Shown here piece after piece: positions 98 to 10,400 of a DNA stretch of 25,044 bases. The position numbers and the translations under genes are program-made. The DNA comes from a virus. How positions within the stretch are numbered: the first letter of the stretch is position 1; each line of letters starts with the position of its first letter. The DNA lies in the IMG/VR virus record IMGVR_UViG_3300009183_000343, positions 1-25,044 of that record, one strand, 5' to 3'. Below the pieces are notes generated by a model, which saw only the letters and a list, made by a program, of their open reading frames with translations, made no database searches and was not told where the DNA came from.

Positions 98-112
98 ATA
101 TGTTAAACTCAA
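98..112 (+). repeat. 15-bp direct repeat, left copy, flanking the homing endonuclease
   Basis: ATATGTTAAACTCAA is identical to 1174-1188, where it holds the start codon of gp4. In this left copy the ATG at 100 opens only M-L-N-S-I before a TAA, so it looks like a relic of the gp4 start left upstream of the inserted gene. Confidence 0.8.
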
Positions 113-134
113 TATAATTTTTCCCACTTTTGGA

Positions 135-146
135 TATTTATATATA
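135..146 (+). promoter_or_regulatory. late-type promoter box of the homing endonuclease
   Basis: TATTTATATATA ends 4 nt before the ATG at 151, the same tight spacing seen at several other genes in this window. Confidence 0.5.
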
Positions 147-150
147 CAAT

Positions 151-1182
151 ATGAGAGAATTGAAAAAGTCAGAAATTGATAAATTACCGAACTTAGGACT
201 AAAATACTTAGGAATTATAGATGGATCAAAGAAGAAAGTAGTATATGATTGTATATCACATGGTTTGGTTTCCCAGAGGTTTGATGTTCATGTTAAGTTA
301 AAAAAATGTTCAAAATGTTCAAATAAAACGGAACTAAAATATACAAAAGAGTACATCAATAGTATAAAGACAAGATATGATTATATATTTGATAAGAATG
401 AATATGAGTCATTTGATAAGATAAAAATCGTTTGTAAAACACATGGTCTGTTTAGTCAGAGAATACATAATCATTTTATACTTGGTCAAAATTGCCCAAG
501 TTGTAGCAGAATTAGGCTAAATAAAGATTTAGTTAATTTCTTATCTAAAATTGATATAAACATTATAAAATATAATGGGTATAGAAGTAAATCAGAATTT
601 TCTTGTAAGGAAGGACACATAATAAAATCAACGGTTGATAACATTAAAAGACATGGATGTTCTGTCTGTAGAAGAGAGTCCAATCTAAAAATAGAAAGGC
701 TTAAATTTATACAAAAATCAATAATGGTTTGGGGTGAATTACTTGATATAGATTATTCAACACTTTACTATAGAGGAAAAAGATTCAAAATGATATTAAA
801 AACCGATATAGGCGATATTGAACAATTGCCCGACTATCATCTAATGGGATTCTTGCCAAAAAAATCTACAAGTGAGATAATTATTAAAAAAATATTAGAA
901 AAAAATCAAATAAATTATATAAGAGAAAAGACATTCAATGGTTGTGTTAATAAAAAAAAGTTAAGATTTGATTTCTATTTACCTGATATAAAAGTATGTA
1001 TAGAATATAATGGAATTCAACACTATGAATCGGTTGATAAATTTGGTGGGTTGGATGGTCTAAAGTATACACAAGTAAATGATGATATTAAAAGAAATTT
1101 TTGTAAAGTAAATAATATAGAACTAATAACTATTAAATATAACGAGTCAATAATAGAAAAATTAAAAAATATAATATGTTAA
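151..1182 (+). CDS. free-standing homing endonuclease, zinc-ribbon repeats plus Vsr-like nuclease
   Basis: A 343-aa protein. Three repeated units of the form C-x2/3-H-G-x4-QR-x-H-x5-C-x2-C lie at about residues 34-56, 95-118 and 152-173; these look like the small zinc-binding DNA-recognition repeats of phage homing endonucleases. The C-terminus (about 270-330) has a Vsr/EDxHD-like PD-(D/E)XK core: RFDFYLPD (D274), CIEYNGIQHY (E285, H291) and a following DDIKRNFC helix. I chose the ATG at 151 because the promoter-like box ends at 146; a TTG at 130 would add 7 residues but overlaps that box. Its stop overlaps the gp4 start by 7 bp, so gp4 is probably translated by coupling. It is flanked by a 15-bp direct repeat that includes the gp4 start codon. 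The role (spread into gp4-region alleles lacking it) is inferred from family and position. Confidence 0.8.
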   Translation: MRELKKSEIDKLPNLGLKYLGIIDGSKKKVVYDCISHGLVSQRFDVHVKLKKCSKCSNKTELKYTKEYINSIKTRYDYIFDKNEYESFDKIKIVCKTHGLFSQRIHNHFILGQNCPSCSRIRLNKDLVNFLSKIDINIIKYNGYRSKSEFSCKEGHIIKSTVDNIKRHGCSVCRRESNLKIERLKFIQKSIMVWGELLDIDYSTLYYRGKRFKMILKTDIGDIEQLPDYHLMGFLPKKSTSEIIIKKILEKNQINYIREKTFNGCVNKKKLRFDFYLPDIKVCIEYNGIQHYESVDKFGGLDGLKYTQVNDDIKRNFCKVNNIELITIKYNESIIEKLKNIIC

Positions 1183-1188
1183 ACTCAA
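1174..1188 (+). repeat. 15-bp direct repeat, right copy, at the gp4 start
   Basis: ATATGTTAAACTCAA, identical to 98-112. The ATG at 1176 in this copy is the current gp4 start codon and the TAA at 1180-1182 is the homing endonuclease stop. Confidence 0.8.
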
Positions 1189-1703
1189 AGCCGAATAATA
1201 AAAACTATCACCAGGGAAACTATACTCCTAAGAACAAGGATAAAGTTATTAAGTTAAATACTCAAGGTGGTGTTTACTATAGGAGCTCTTGGGAGTTGAA
1301 AATAATGACTTGGCTAGATATGAATGTTAAAGTCACGAAGTGGGGATCTGAGAACTTGAGAATTCCTTATCAAATGACTCACTTTGAAAATGGTGATCAA
1401 AAAATAAAAGAACATAGTTATTATCCGGATTTCTATTATGAAATGATGATAGATGATAGGCTAAAGCAGGTTGTGGTTGAGGTTAAGCCAAATGAGGAAT
1501 ATAAAGATGCTATATTATTCACAGAAGGTAAATTTAACATACCGGATGGATTGTCTTTAAAAAAACTAAAAAACTTAGAGTTTAAATTTAAAATGGCTCA
1601 GAGAAATTCCGAAAAGTGGAAAACTATGATAGCTTGGTGTAATAAAAAAGGTTATGAGTTTATTATCATAACAGAAGACCATTTGAAAAAGTTTAACTTG
1701 TAA
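1176..1703 (+). CDS. 4: head completion nuclease, T4 gp4-like
   Basis: A 175-aa protein matching the T4 gp4 (gene 4/50) head-completion family, which acts on packaged heads before tail joining. Visible signature: YRSSWELKIMTWLD (34-47), KWGSE (55-59), then a PD-(D/E)XK-type core with YYPDFYYE (82-89, D85) and VVVEVKP (99-105, E102 and K104). The length is close to the T4 protein. The start overlaps the stop of the homing endonuclease by 7 bp and there is no promoter box directly upstream, so it is now expressed by read-through from the endonuclease. The 3' end overlaps the convergent membrane-protein gene by 11 bp. Confidence 0.85.
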   Translation: MLNSKPNNKNYHQGNYTPKNKDKVIKLNTQGGVYYRSSWELKIMTWLDMNVKVTKWGSENLRIPYQMTHFENGDQKIKEHSYYPDFYYEMMIDDRLKQVVVEVKPNEEYKDAILFTEGKFNIPDGLSLKKLKNLEFKFKMAQRNSEKWKTMIAWCNKKGYEFIIITEDHLKKFNL

Positions 1704-2415: not shown

Positions 2416-3507
2416 ATGAATATTAAATTAGAGTATATTTGGCTTGATGGTTCTAACCCTCAACAAATTAGGAGTAAGACAAAGATTGTGAATAAAATGG
2501 ATACAATGATTCCATTTGACTATCCTGTTTGGTCATTTGATGGTAGTTCTACTGGGCAAGCTCAGTCTGGTAAAGGTAAAAACACCGACTGTCTATTAAA
2601 GCCAGTATTTGTTACTATGGATCCATTTAGAGGTAATCCACATAGATTAGTTTTATGTGAAGTTCTTAATCCAGACGGTACACCACATGAATCAAACAAC
2701 AGAAGAAAATTATCTAAAAAAGTAAATGAGTTAAATATTGAATCAAATGAGAAATCAGATCTTCCATGGTTTGGTTGGGAACAAGAATATACATTAACTC
2801 ATAAACCTATGATTCCATTTGGATATGGTGAAGGTATTCCTTTAGGATTTACTTTAGATCCAAACAAAACTCCTAGACCTCAAGGTGATTACTATTGTGG
2901 TATTGGTTCTGATAATGTTGTAGGTAGAGGTATTGTAGAAGAGCATATGGATGTATGTATGGAAATTGGATTAGATATTTCTGGTATAAATGCTGAAGTT
3001 CTTTTAGGTCAATGGGAATATCAAATAGGACCTGTTACCGCTTTAAATGGATCAGACCAATTATGGATATCAAGATATCTTTTACAAAGAGTTGCTGAGA
3101 AACACAATGTAAAGATTTCATTACACCCAAAACCATTAAAAGGAGACTGGAATGGAACTGGATGTCATGTTAACTTCTCTACTAAGGAAATGAGAGAAGA
3201 AGGTGGTTTAGAAATCATTAAAGAACAAATGGAGAAATTAGATAAATTTCAAAAAGAACATATTGCTGTTTATGGTTTATACAATGATGAAAGATTAACA
3301 GGAGCTCATGAAACTTCAAGTATCAATGACTTTAGTTATGGATTCTCTACAAGAGATACTTCTATTAGAATACCTGCTCAAGCAATTGTAGAAGGTAAAG
3401 GTTATTTTGAAGATAGAAGACCAGCATCTAATTGTGATCCTTATTTAGTATCAGAAAGAATGTTACAAACTGTTTATAGTGAAGTTGAAGTTCCAGCAGA
3501 AGCTTAA
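2416..3507 (+). CDS. glnA: glutamine synthetase, type II (beta-grasp), phage-encoded
   Basis: A 363-aa GSII-type enzyme that makes glutamine from glutamate, ammonia and ATP. It covers the whole family: beta-grasp N-domain with YIWLDG (7-12) and VWSFDGSSTGQA (38-49); catalytic barrel with WFGWEQEYTL (118-127, E122/E124), INAEVLLGQWEYQIGP (191-206, E194/E201), NGTGCHVNFS (246-255, H251), GAHETSSINDFSYG and EDRRPASNCDPY near the C-terminus. All metal, glutamate and ATP-site motifs I know for GSII are present, so it is probably active. The closest family I recall is the 340-residue Bacteroidota GSII, suggesting host origin; base composition is like neighbours, so transfer is not recent. It is a single-gene unit with a long A-rich leader and a strong terminator. 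Glutamine synthetase is uncommon in phages. Confidence 0.93.
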   Translation: MNIKLEYIWLDGSNPQQIRSKTKIVNKMDTMIPFDYPVWSFDGSSTGQAQSGKGKNTDCLLKPVFVTMDPFRGNPHRLVLCEVLNPDGTPHESNNRRKLSKKVNELNIESNEKSDLPWFGWEQEYTLTHKPMIPFGYGEGIPLGFTLDPNKTPRPQGDYYCGIGSDNVVGRGIVEEHMDVCMEIGLDISGINAEVLLGQWEYQIGPVTALNGSDQLWISRYLLQRVAEKHNVKISLHPKPLKGDWNGTGCHVNFSTKEMREEGGLEIIKEQMEKLDKFQKEHIAVYGLYNDERLTGAHETSSINDFSYGFSTRDTSIRIPAQAIVEGKGYFEDRRPASNCDPYLVSERMLQTVYSEVEVPAEA

Positions 3508-3577: not shown

Positions 3578-3943
3578 CTAGAGTGAGTGTAGACCCATAC
3601 CATCGTTTGATCCTTCAATTGAAATTAATTTAATTAAATGTTCATTATCGCCTTTCTTTTTATAAAGTTCATTATAACCTTTAGCAATTCCTCTTTTAAA
3701 TACTTCTGTAAAATAAGCAAAAGCATTTACAGACTTTTCTTCATTAAAATTATACCAGTTTTGAAACATATCAAGTAGCCCAGATTGATAACAATCTAAC
3801 CTGTCATCATTTGACCAATATCTCATTTTTTTGATTGTTTTTTTCGCTAATAATTCTAACATTTTTTCAGAGTTTCTTGTTAATTTTCCTTGTGCTTTTG
3901 ACACGATGACCTCAATGTAGAGGTCTTTATTATTTAAATAAAT
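3578..3943 (-). CDS. 55: late-transcription sigma factor, T4 gp55-like, with no canonical start at its expected N-terminus
   Basis: A small sigma-70 region-2 protein that would direct host RNA polymerase to phage late promoters. Key region: DRLDCYQSGLLDMFQNWYNF, then AFAYFTEVFKRGIAKGYNE, matching region 2 of T4-like gp55 proteins. The first canonical start is GTG at 3904 (108 aa), but the frame stays open upstream and encodes IYLNNKDLYIEVIV, which aligns with T4 gp55 YNYVNNKELLQAII. I therefore extend the gene to at least the ATT at 3943 (121 aa); initiation there is inference. The frame is closed by a TAA further upstream in the hairpin region. It is much shorter than T4 gp55 (185 aa) and I see no T4-like clamp-binding tail (SLDFLYE). 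There is no TATATA box upstream, unlike most genes here. Confidence 0.75.
   Translation of the reverse strand: MYLNNKDLYIEVIVSKAQGKLTRNSEKMLELLAKKTIKKMRYWSNDDRLDCYQSGLLDMFQNWYNFNEEKSVNAFAYFTEVFKRGIAKGYNELYKKKGDNEHLIKLISIEGSNDGMGLHSL
3908..3925. repeat. small inverted repeat at the gp55 5' end
   Basis: GACCTC-AATGTA-GAGGTC, a perfect 6-bp palindrome with 6-nt loop, lies just upstream of the GTG at 3904 and inside the extended gp55 frame. It could fold in the mRNA near the start region. Confidence 0.45.
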
Positions 3944-5428: not shown

Positions 5429-6292
5429 TTAATTATTTCTATTTGGATTTTCAGAATTTGGGTTATTTGTTCCTGGATTTGTTTTTTCTCTTGTTTTTAA
5501 GAGGTTATTATACCATCTTGTTCTCTTCGGTGCTACTATATAATTTGGATCGTAAACTCCACCTGGTAACACTTTGGATAGGTCAAGATTATTTCCAGCA
5601 CCATTATTCCAATAATCAGCACCAGAACCAGCAGCACCTCCACCAGCACCACCACCAACTCTATCTCTTCTTAATGCTGGATAATATGTCTGAACTTCAA
5701 ATGAAATAGACAATTTAATAGTATTGTCACCAGTCATATTCTTTTCTCTATTTATCTCAACAGTATTTGAATCTGGTAGTAACATTACCGCATCAATATT
5801 CATGAAGTTATGTTCAAACCACATAAATCTATATAACCAAAGAGTATCTAATATAGCTTGGCTACATTTGAATATATCAATTTCACTAGATAAAATAATA
5901 GCTAGGTCATAACTAACCGTAATTGGAACAGCTCTTACTTTAGATAAAACTTTTCTTATTTCGACATCATCTTCTAATACCATCTTTAACCAAACATTTG
6001 GATTAGCAAACTCATCAGATCTAATAGCAAAGTTAGTCATTGTTAAATGGCCTCTTGGAACTTGGTCAGTATTTAACTCAATAAATCTGTTTTCTGAAAC
6101 TATATCATCTGAAAATGAATCTAATAAGAATCTTTCATCTCCTGTTAATGAGTAGTAGAAAGGAACCTTAACATAAACATCGCCTGAGCTAAATCTATTA
6201 ACCCAGTTAATTTGACCCTCCATTGTATCTAAAACACAAACAGTTAGATCTCTGAAAAATACATCTTCAAAATTAAACTTTTTACCTACCAT
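5429..6292 (-). CDS. 15: tail completion and sheath stabiliser protein, T4 gp15-like
   Basis: A 287-aa protein resembling the T4 gp15 family, which caps the tail tube and sheath and joins tail to head. Similar landmarks in order: an N-terminal segment ending SGDVYVKVPFYY (36-47; T4 has SGDKFIRVPITY), LTMTNFAIRSD (about 83-93; T4 NLHLVDFSY), VRAVPITVSYDLAIIL (about 119-134; T4 SPIKMIYELSIF) and IKLSISFEVQTYYPALR (about 193-209; T4 IEWSLTFEVNGWMYPP). Length is close to T4 (272 aa). The C-terminal 75 residues are a Gly/Asn/Pro-rich tail including VGGGAGGGAAGSGA. A TTTAATATATA box ends 5 nt before the ATG. It is divergent from the gp44 gene. Confidence 0.75.
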   Translation of the reverse strand: MVGKKFNFEDVFFRDLTVCVLDTMEGQINWVNRFSSGDVYVKVPFYYSLTGDERFLLDSFSDDIVSENRFIELNTDQVPRGHLTMTNFAIRSDEFANPNVWLKMVLEDDVEIRKVLSKVRAVPITVSYDLAIILSSEIDIFKCSQAILDTLWLYRFMWFEHNFMNIDAVMLLPDSNTVEINREKNMTGDNTIKLSISFEVQTYYPALRRDRVGGGAGGGAAGSGADYWNNGAGNNLDLSKVLPGGVYDPNYIVAPKRTRWYNNLLKTREKTNPGTNNPNSENPNRNN

Positions 6293-9830: not shown

Positions 9831-10400
9831 TTAAGCTGGTAATTCTTCTTCACCTTCTTTTTCTTCTTGAGATCCTTGAGCTTTTGCTTGAGGTTCTTCC
9901 TCTTTTTCTTCTTCCTCTTGAGATCCTTGAGCTTTTGCTTGAGGTTCTTCCTCTTTTTCTTCTTCCTCTTGAGATCCTTGAGCTTTTGCTTGAGGTTCTT
10001 CAAATTCTTCACCTTGAACTTGTGTTTGAGGTTGAACTTCCGTTTGAACTTGTGTCTGAGGTTGAACTTGCGTTTGAGCTTCAGGTTGAGCTTCTGTTTG
10101 AGTTTGAGGTTGAACTTGACCACCCATTAATGCTCCACCAGGAATTTTTTCAACATCTAAGTTGTTCATATTTATATACTTAACAATTTCTTCAGCGATG
10201 TCAACATCACCAAAAAACTGACGTAAATTTTTACCAGTAGTATCTTTAACCTTTTTTACATAAGCATTAATCAATGATTGAGGAATATCAATCATAGTTT
10301 TTACTTTGTAGATATCGTTTACTTGGAAAACAGATTCTTTAATAATCTCTTCTCTCTTACTCTTAGTACGATAATTTTCAAATGTTCTAATATGCTTCAT
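9831..10400 (-). CDS. tagged protein with disordered PQTQ and acidic repeat tail
   Basis: A 189-aa protein starting MKHIRTFENYRTKSKREE (shared tag). Residues about 20-90 are an ordered helical domain (SLINAYVKKVKDTTGKNLRQ). From about 95 on it is low complexity: repeated P-Q-T-Q/E-A-Q units, then three 17-residue units of the form EEPQAKAQGSQ followed by an E/K run. The tail is strongly acidic and Gln-rich, so probably disordered. The repeat is encoded by a 51-bp tandem DNA repeat. The function is unknown; a packaged internal protein is suggested by the tag. The promoter is a near copy of that at 5392-5424 and it ends at its own terminator. Confidence 0.75.
   Translation of the reverse strand: MKHIRTFENYRTKSKREEIIKESVFQVNDIYKVKTMIDIPQSLINAYVKKVKDTTGKNLRQFFGDVDIAEEIVKYINMNNLDVEKIPGGALMGGQVQPQTQTEAQPEAQTQVQPQTQVQTEVQPQTQVQGEEFEEPQAKAQGSQEEEEKEEEPQAKAQGSQEEEEKEEEPQAKAQGSQEEKEGEEELPA
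9869..10001. repeat. 51-bp tandem repeat inside the acidic protein gene
   Basis: The unit starting GAGATCCTTGAGCTTTTGCT begins at 9869, 9920 and 9971; the first two are complete and identical by eye and the third is about 31 bp. The 51-bp period keeps the reading frame (17 codons), so copy number can vary without breaking the gene. Confidence 0.9.

Follow-up and report, generated by a model that had tools for sequence, protein, structure and literature searches.

Organisation of the locus

The analysed DNA, a viral stretch of 25,044 bases (hereafter the window), opens with the 5' end of a resident gene on the minus strand (1–67, MGVLNELVNYQVKVEGGDKASN...; truncated by the window edge). This upstream neighbour starts at 67, diverges from gp4 and is not read towards it; in relatives, this place is taken by an MG(A/E/D)L... 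gene that likewise diverges from gp4. On the plus strand follow a resident late-promoter-like box at 87–98 (TATATATA at 87–94, TATAAATA at 91–98), a first copy of the 15-mer ATATGTTAAACTCAA (98–112), an 11-base linker, TATAATTTTTC (113–123), a cassette leader, CCACTTTTGGATATTTATATATACAAT (124–150), with its own TATATATA box at 139–146, and the gene of a free-standing homing endonuclease of 343 aa (homing endonuclease gene, HEG; 151–1182, PHROG 559/9084/7140). The HEG runs from an ATG at 151 to a stop at 1182, which lies inside codons 1–3 of gp4, resulting in an overlap of 7 nt. The gp4 gene itself (1176–1703, plus strand) encodes the head completion/head closure protein (PHROG 218 head closure, E 4.5e-31). 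The endonuclease is free-standing in that its ORF, with a start and a stop of its own, is not part of the gp4 reading frame, and a search for an intron gave no Rfam match anywhere in the window.

The window also encodes a gp55-like late sigma factor (3578–3904), a T4-type terminase and a clamp loader, and its relatives include uncultured phage genomes of 634 and 642 kb (74–75% DNA identity); the host replicon of the insertion is a giant T4-like phage. Further genes include a glutamine synthetase at 2416–3507 (Gln-synt_C 6e-17, Gln-synt_N 2.6e-10), present at the same place in five related contigs (L002, L004, L080, L098 and L099; 75–78% aa identity), and a minus-strand ORF at 9831–10400 with in-frame repeats (QAKAQGSQEEEEKEEEP..., QPQTQVQ...).

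An earlier note on this DNA had reported that ATATGTTAAACTCAA flanks the endonuclease gene, and mismatch-free copies do lie at 98–112 and 1174–1188 with the endonuclease between them. The right copy contains the current gp4 ATG (1176) as well as the HEG stop TAA (1180–1182), while the left ATG (100) opens five codons only, MLNSI, before a TAA, and stands 5 nt past a TATATA that ends at 94, all as had been described. The 15-mer is also as rare as supposed, at least within the window: no further copy was found at up to 2 mismatches on either strand of the 25,044 bases, and the three remaining matches each have 3 mismatches, which equals chance expectation. When the upstream region was simulated at the same composition, a 15-mer shared with the right-hand region arose in approximately 1/10,000 trials. 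A chance repeat was ruled out on the basis of this simulation and of the uniqueness within the window.

The tight spacing between box and start, said to be shared with other genes, holds for six other genes in the window (4–5 nt from TATATA to ATG) but not for others, where it is 16–29 nt. Both spacing classes can be seen at 87–151, 6292, 7336, 8059, 9765, 20406 and other positions of the window, and the 4–5 nt class would yield nearly leaderless late mRNAs if initiation were T4-like, at 6–7 nt past the box. The endonuclease has a TATATA box of its own, 4 nt ahead of its ATG, which the earlier note had missed together with the linker. Its view that gp4 had been moved away from its promoter and coupled to the stop codon of the invader thus stands as regards the stop/start overlap, but with its own promoter-like box the endonuclease does not leave gp4 dependent solely on the old, distant one.

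Uninterrupted alleles in close relatives

A search pattern made up of the box, any five bases and the start of gp4 retrieved two contigs without the endonuclease, L316 and L317. L316 equals the window at 112/112 bases, through the last base of the left copy, from where it leads directly into gp4; past base 112 similarity to the window ceases. The DNA of the divergent gene (1–67) is identical in L316, where the ORF runs on, and the box at 87–98 is likewise 100% identical there and equally distant from the gp4 ATG. Judged from this conservation of position, the box appears to have served gp4 prior to the insertion. The empty allele that had been predicted for relatives lacking the endonuclease (box, five bases, ATGTTAAACTCAA, gp4) is present exactly in L316 and with one base off in the 13 in L317. 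Since empty sites occur in these two independent contigs, gp4 did begin at 100, as had been suggested. A region of L316 at 5689–6105 contains internal tandem repeats.

The site is polymorphic in close relatives, being empty in L316 and L317 and occupied in the window and in L001. The latter contig is 99.8% identical to the window over 5113 bases and extends 11 bases further left, which brings the identity with L316 to 123/123. An assembly chimera was judged unlikely, because L001 shares the junctions and both outer flanks fit the same lineage.

Mosaic structure of gp4

Divergence of the window from L316 and L317 starts immediately after the right copy. In the comparison with L316, mismatches amount to 116/454 over 1176–1632 and then to 0/91, and in that with L317 to 117/442 up to 1620 and then to 121/1941 (6%). 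Changepoint analysis gave log-likelihood gains of 24 (L316) and 66 (L317), with support intervals of 1620–1642 and 1613–1632, respectively, so that the right recombination junction, from foreign to resident DNA, lies within 1613–1642. The foreign part of gp4 (1176–1620 on the plus strand, approximately codons 1–148) has 75–76% nt identity and 71% aa identity to L316/L317. The resident 3' end (1621–1703, plus strand) has 98.8% nt identity to L316 and 96.4% to L317, and codons 149–175 have 93–96% aa identity. The resident allele of L316 is ordinary for its clade, as it is 87–89% identical at the aa level to those of L004 and L002; codons 1–148 of the window reach only 71–73% to any of these.

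Based on these alignments, the incoming tract is shown to extend from 113 to approximately 1620 and comprises the linker, the leader, the endonuclease and, from a foreign gp4 allele, the first ~148 codons. Resident DNA, by the same comparison, is shown to be unbroken through the promoter and the old start to 112, with resident gp4 resuming after ~1620. The two 15-mers are accordingly the starts of two gp4 alleles, the left one a footprint of the resident start, the right one the start of the immigrant, and they form a repeat because the alleles have these bases in common. The account given earlier, in which the invader duplicated the resident start and left gp4 intact, is not supported, as gp4 is a hybrid with codons 1–148 foreign and codons 149–175 resident. 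A plain duplication would have kept gp4 as near to L316 as the left flank is.

The divergent part of gp4 could in principle be native and the result of fast evolution after the insertion, under relaxed or compensatory selection. The long branch of the hybrid in the gp4 tree (0.39), which leaves the placement of the window unresolved, would agree with this, but the 116/454 differences are flanked by 0/123 on the left and 0/91 on the right, the breakpoint is sharp and silent changes are many, making such an origin extremely improbable. Among the loci compared, no relative of the foreign part was nearer than ~76% nt identity, and a scan of genome contigs found no gp4 relatives. A mosaic derived from the clade of L014 was also considered and set aside, as sliding identity gave no clear donor clade.

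Related endonucleases at gp4 and at other starts

Across a comparison set of 80 viral loci with gp4, the order of divergent gene, TATATA box and gp4 is uninterrupted except in L001, L013, L014 and L080. In L013 and L014 the insertion site is occupied by an endonuclease of 47% identity that shares the leader (CCACTTTTGRATATTTATATATACAA) and the ATATGTTAA overlap, and of the footprint the ATG alone remains before the leader. The exact leader pattern is confined to HEG-bearing records (L001, L013/L101 and L014/L102). The linker TATAATTTTTC, which in the window is the first incoming DNA between footprint and leader, is missing from L316 and L317 and also from L014 and L105, where the cassettes begin at (T)CCACT. 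The gp4 site of L105 holds a related endonuclease (44–45% identity), and the copy there, TATGTTAAATT, is 11 bp long and agrees with the gp4 of L105. In a tree of gp55 and a 427-aa gene, the window and L014 fall into different well-supported clades, and their two cassettes at this site therefore do not reflect simple shared inheritance. L080 has a different endonuclease at gp4 (528 aa) without a clear footprint; its left flank ATGAAGAACACAGTGCG was tried as a remnant of the gp4 start and rejected, the match being too weak. The gp4 frame of L080 (6001–6533) is interrupted past codon ~43 by a frameshift at 13 consecutive A, which is either a sequencing error or real.

The recurrence of such footprints was assessed with 122 distinct endonucleases of the family, which gave 59 testable pairs of endonuclease and downstream start; a footprint was defined as an exact repeat of at least 11 bp including the downstream ATG, and 1157 shuffled (mismatched) pairs served as control. 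The layout was found in 4/59 pairs compared to 4/1157 control pairs, with lengths of 15 bp in the window, 12 bp in L061/L062, 12 bp in L136 and 11 bp in L105. In all four, the left copy is situated 41–60 nt ahead of the ATG of the HEG, whose stop overlaps the right copy. Matches of 9 bp in L154, L155 and L157 were discarded, being weak, chance-like and 159 nt upstream.

In L061/L062 the endonuclease is on the opposite strand, at the start of the divergent gene in the same promoter region (TATATGGGAGCA). Translation of L061 gives MGALQ for the left footprint with its continuation but MGALEER for the right copy; as expected, the copies thus seem to belong to two alleles beyond the 12 bp. L136 concerns an unrelated gene pair, for which ~35 relatives show the stop of the upstream gene overlapping the start of the downstream gene without interruption (ATGTTTGTTAA). 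The insertion there has one copy per side, the left one being the stop of the upstream gene and the right one both the start of the downstream gene and the stop of the endonuclease. No near-identical empty relative was found for L105 or L136, so a foreign downstream gene is shown for the window, with two alleles also seen in L061.

Several observations were made at related loci. A second endonuclease of the same family begins in L136 at 2402, ~60 bp past the downstream gene, which is thereby bracketed by two HEGs. Five relatives of the L136 gene pair (L199–L201 and L184–L185, just 5' of the matching stretch) have a new start codon 20–40 nt past the usual overlapping stop/start; these may possibly be scars of lost endonuclease insertions. 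In L082 a 14-bp repeat, AAGCATATATAAGT, flanks a HEG (2880–2893 and 3799–3812) but contains no start codon and resembles a promoter box, and in L151 a 24-bp AT-rich repeat, also with no start codon, flanks a HEG near 2450 and 3368.

The similar repeat lengths in the four cases (11–15 bp), with left copies that begin near the ATG, are what a true target-site duplication might produce, in which the resident start would have been copied to both sides, for example by fill-in of a staggered cut, and gp4 otherwise left untouched. Both copies are moreover identical in the window, L105 and L136, and a staggered-cut duplication would equally produce the L105 and L136 repeats. To the right of the right copy in the window, however, 25% nt divergence extends over ~450 bp and ends sharply, and the L061 copies come from different alleles past 12 bp. 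Because the ~445 bp to the right of the right copy are foreign, this explanation was rejected for the window, where it is considered highly unlikely. The left copy is better understood, from the alignments, as a footprint of the old start than as a target duplication of the transposon type.

Proposed mechanism of insertion

It is very probable that the endonuclease gene entered the gp4 start region by one-sided double-strand-break repair during intronless homing. The cut would have fallen in the resident allele, a few codons into gp4. Of the two ends, the one on the gp4 side may then have been resected by ~450 bp and repaired from the homologous donor gp4, while the promoter-side end would have remained intact and been joined to donor DNA ahead of the endonuclease, either end-to-end or via a short match offered by a donor with its own start footprint. 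For T4 it is established that homing can be one-sided, with illegitimate repair at microhomology, that flanking markers are co-converted and that an asymmetry arises when the enzyme remains bound to one end (PMC2988022). The left flanks of L013/L014, reduced to the ATG, and that of L080, with no clear footprint, speak against this reading. Since the element carries the start of its target gene and takes its stop from it, gp4 would remain expressible without an intron or intein.

A variant that falls somewhat short of an even chance is two-sided homing from a donor that was already footprinted. The left copy would then come from the donor footprint, or the crossover would lie within it, and the illegitimate event would be older and would have happened elsewhere. 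Homologous cassettes with a start footprint or an ATG at the same site in L105 and L014 speak for this, as would a match of 15 bp at the left end of the break. On the other hand, no change is seen in the resident promoter DNA up to and including base 112, which confines any left crossover to the footprint itself, and such a donor was not found among the loci compared. Two-sided homing would, however, alter when the footprint arose and not its nature as a remnant of a gp4 start.

The position of the footprint between two boxes, just 5' of the endonuclease gene, raises the question of whether the left half-site is kept as an operator, with the endonuclease binding the box and the start remnant and repressing its own promoter in the manner of I-TevI. 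T4 intron endonucleases do have operators that resemble their homing sites and lie over late promoters (PMC2988022). By analogy the window could be similar, but in L014 nothing more than the ATG is left of the footprint, and that of the window is young, so that its preservation requires no selection, rendering an operator role unlikely.

Both recombination junctions are legible from the sequence, and the cut site is predicted to lie within the first ~13 bases of gp4. The case shows how a selfish endonuclease can occupy the start codon of an essential gene, in the absence of intron or intein, by bringing its own start for that gene and most of the gene as well, and homing endonucleases are thereby connected with domain exchange in an essential virion protein. 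The arrangement also provides a search signature, namely a start-codon footprint 5' of an endonuclease that overlaps the following gene with its stop, with three further cases found here. We tentatively suggest, at slightly lower confidence than the variant with a footprinted donor, that start-carrying cassettes may recur in giant phages, target conserved promoter/start-codon junctions of essential genes, travel with the 5' end of their target and retain the resident start as a left half-site. If so, the left half-site would be a short left homology for the next homing event, and perhaps an operator for the endonuclease promoter, and N-terminal domains of essential virion proteins would be exchanged among phage lineages through the cassettes.

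Fold of the endonuclease

The PHROGs database labels the family as HNH or homing endonuclease. An AF2 model of the endonuclease had a mean pLDDT of 87, exceeding 90 across most of residues 241–340. The top VIA-align match of this C-terminal domain was I-Bth0305I (3r3p_A; Z 10.1, rmsd 2.7, 88/97 residues), followed by Vsr (1cw0/1vsr), and EDxHD is therefore a better name than HNH. The enzyme is thus predicted from the model to have an EDxHD (I-Bth0305I/Vsr-like) catalytic fold, with the corresponding activity presumed. Foldseek alone returned weak matches only (best nuclease 1vsr, E 0.14), and a search of the HEG profile against PDB sequences found nothing. Across 26 relatives, D274, E285, H291, D311 and K314, among which catalytic residues may lie, are invariant and E242 is nearly so. 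Zinc-finger-like DUF4379 and DUF723 matches occur at the N-terminus in 21/26 and 19/26 relatives, respectively; the DUF4379 score of the window protein itself is under the cut-off (22.0 vs 24.5 bits). Some members of the family contain a CapR domain.

Comparison with known systems

I-Bth0305I is intron-encoded. The window protein resembles it in the fold of the catalytic domain and in having a multi-domain N-terminal DNA-binding part, but its gene is free-standing and it is only 23% identical over the aligned domain. I-Bth0305I has been reviewed alongside group I intron enzymes (PMC3943268).

Intronless homing is known from the free-standing T4 endonucleases SegF, SegG and MobE (reviewed in PMC2988022). 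As in these systems, a free-standing HEG adjoins an essential phage gene, its presence varies among relatives, and flanking DNA is co-converted. The T4 enzymes, in contrast, reportedly cleave at distances of hundreds to thousands of bases from their own gene, and none of those in that review carries the start of its target gene (PMC2988022), whereas in the window the start codon itself is the point of insertion, and a footprint of the old start was left behind. With one-sided homing in T4 the locus shares homology on one side, an illegitimate junction on the other and long one-sided co-conversion; there the events were laboratory crosses, while the event described here would be a natural one, reconstructed from its products. 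HEGs of ICP1-like phages likewise lie by essential genes and accompany allele exchange, with the HEGs situated at the exchange boundaries (Barth et al. 2023, PMC10448857), and the CapR domain is a further point of likeness between that case and some members of the present family. A text search of PMC10448857 found neither a start-codon footprint nor a hybrid gene, and no description of phage start-codon footprints was found in the open-licence literature searched.

The nearest analogues are the mobile ORFs of fungal mitochondria that carry a gene terminus, described for Glomus atp6, atp9, cox2 and nad3 and for Allomyces atp6 (PMC3630166). In both settings an endonuclease ORF brings a foreign gene end, creating a hybrid gene and displacing the native end beyond the endonuclease. 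The fungal elements carry the 3' end, and hence the C-terminus, and encode LAGLIDADG or GIY-YIG enzymes, whereas the window element carries the 5' end with the start codon, resides in a phage and encodes an enzyme of the EDxHD type. As the fungal type concerns 3' ends, the window element works alike but is not classed as one; it is its mirror image, with a foreign 5' end fused to a resident 3' end and the resident start displaced upstream.
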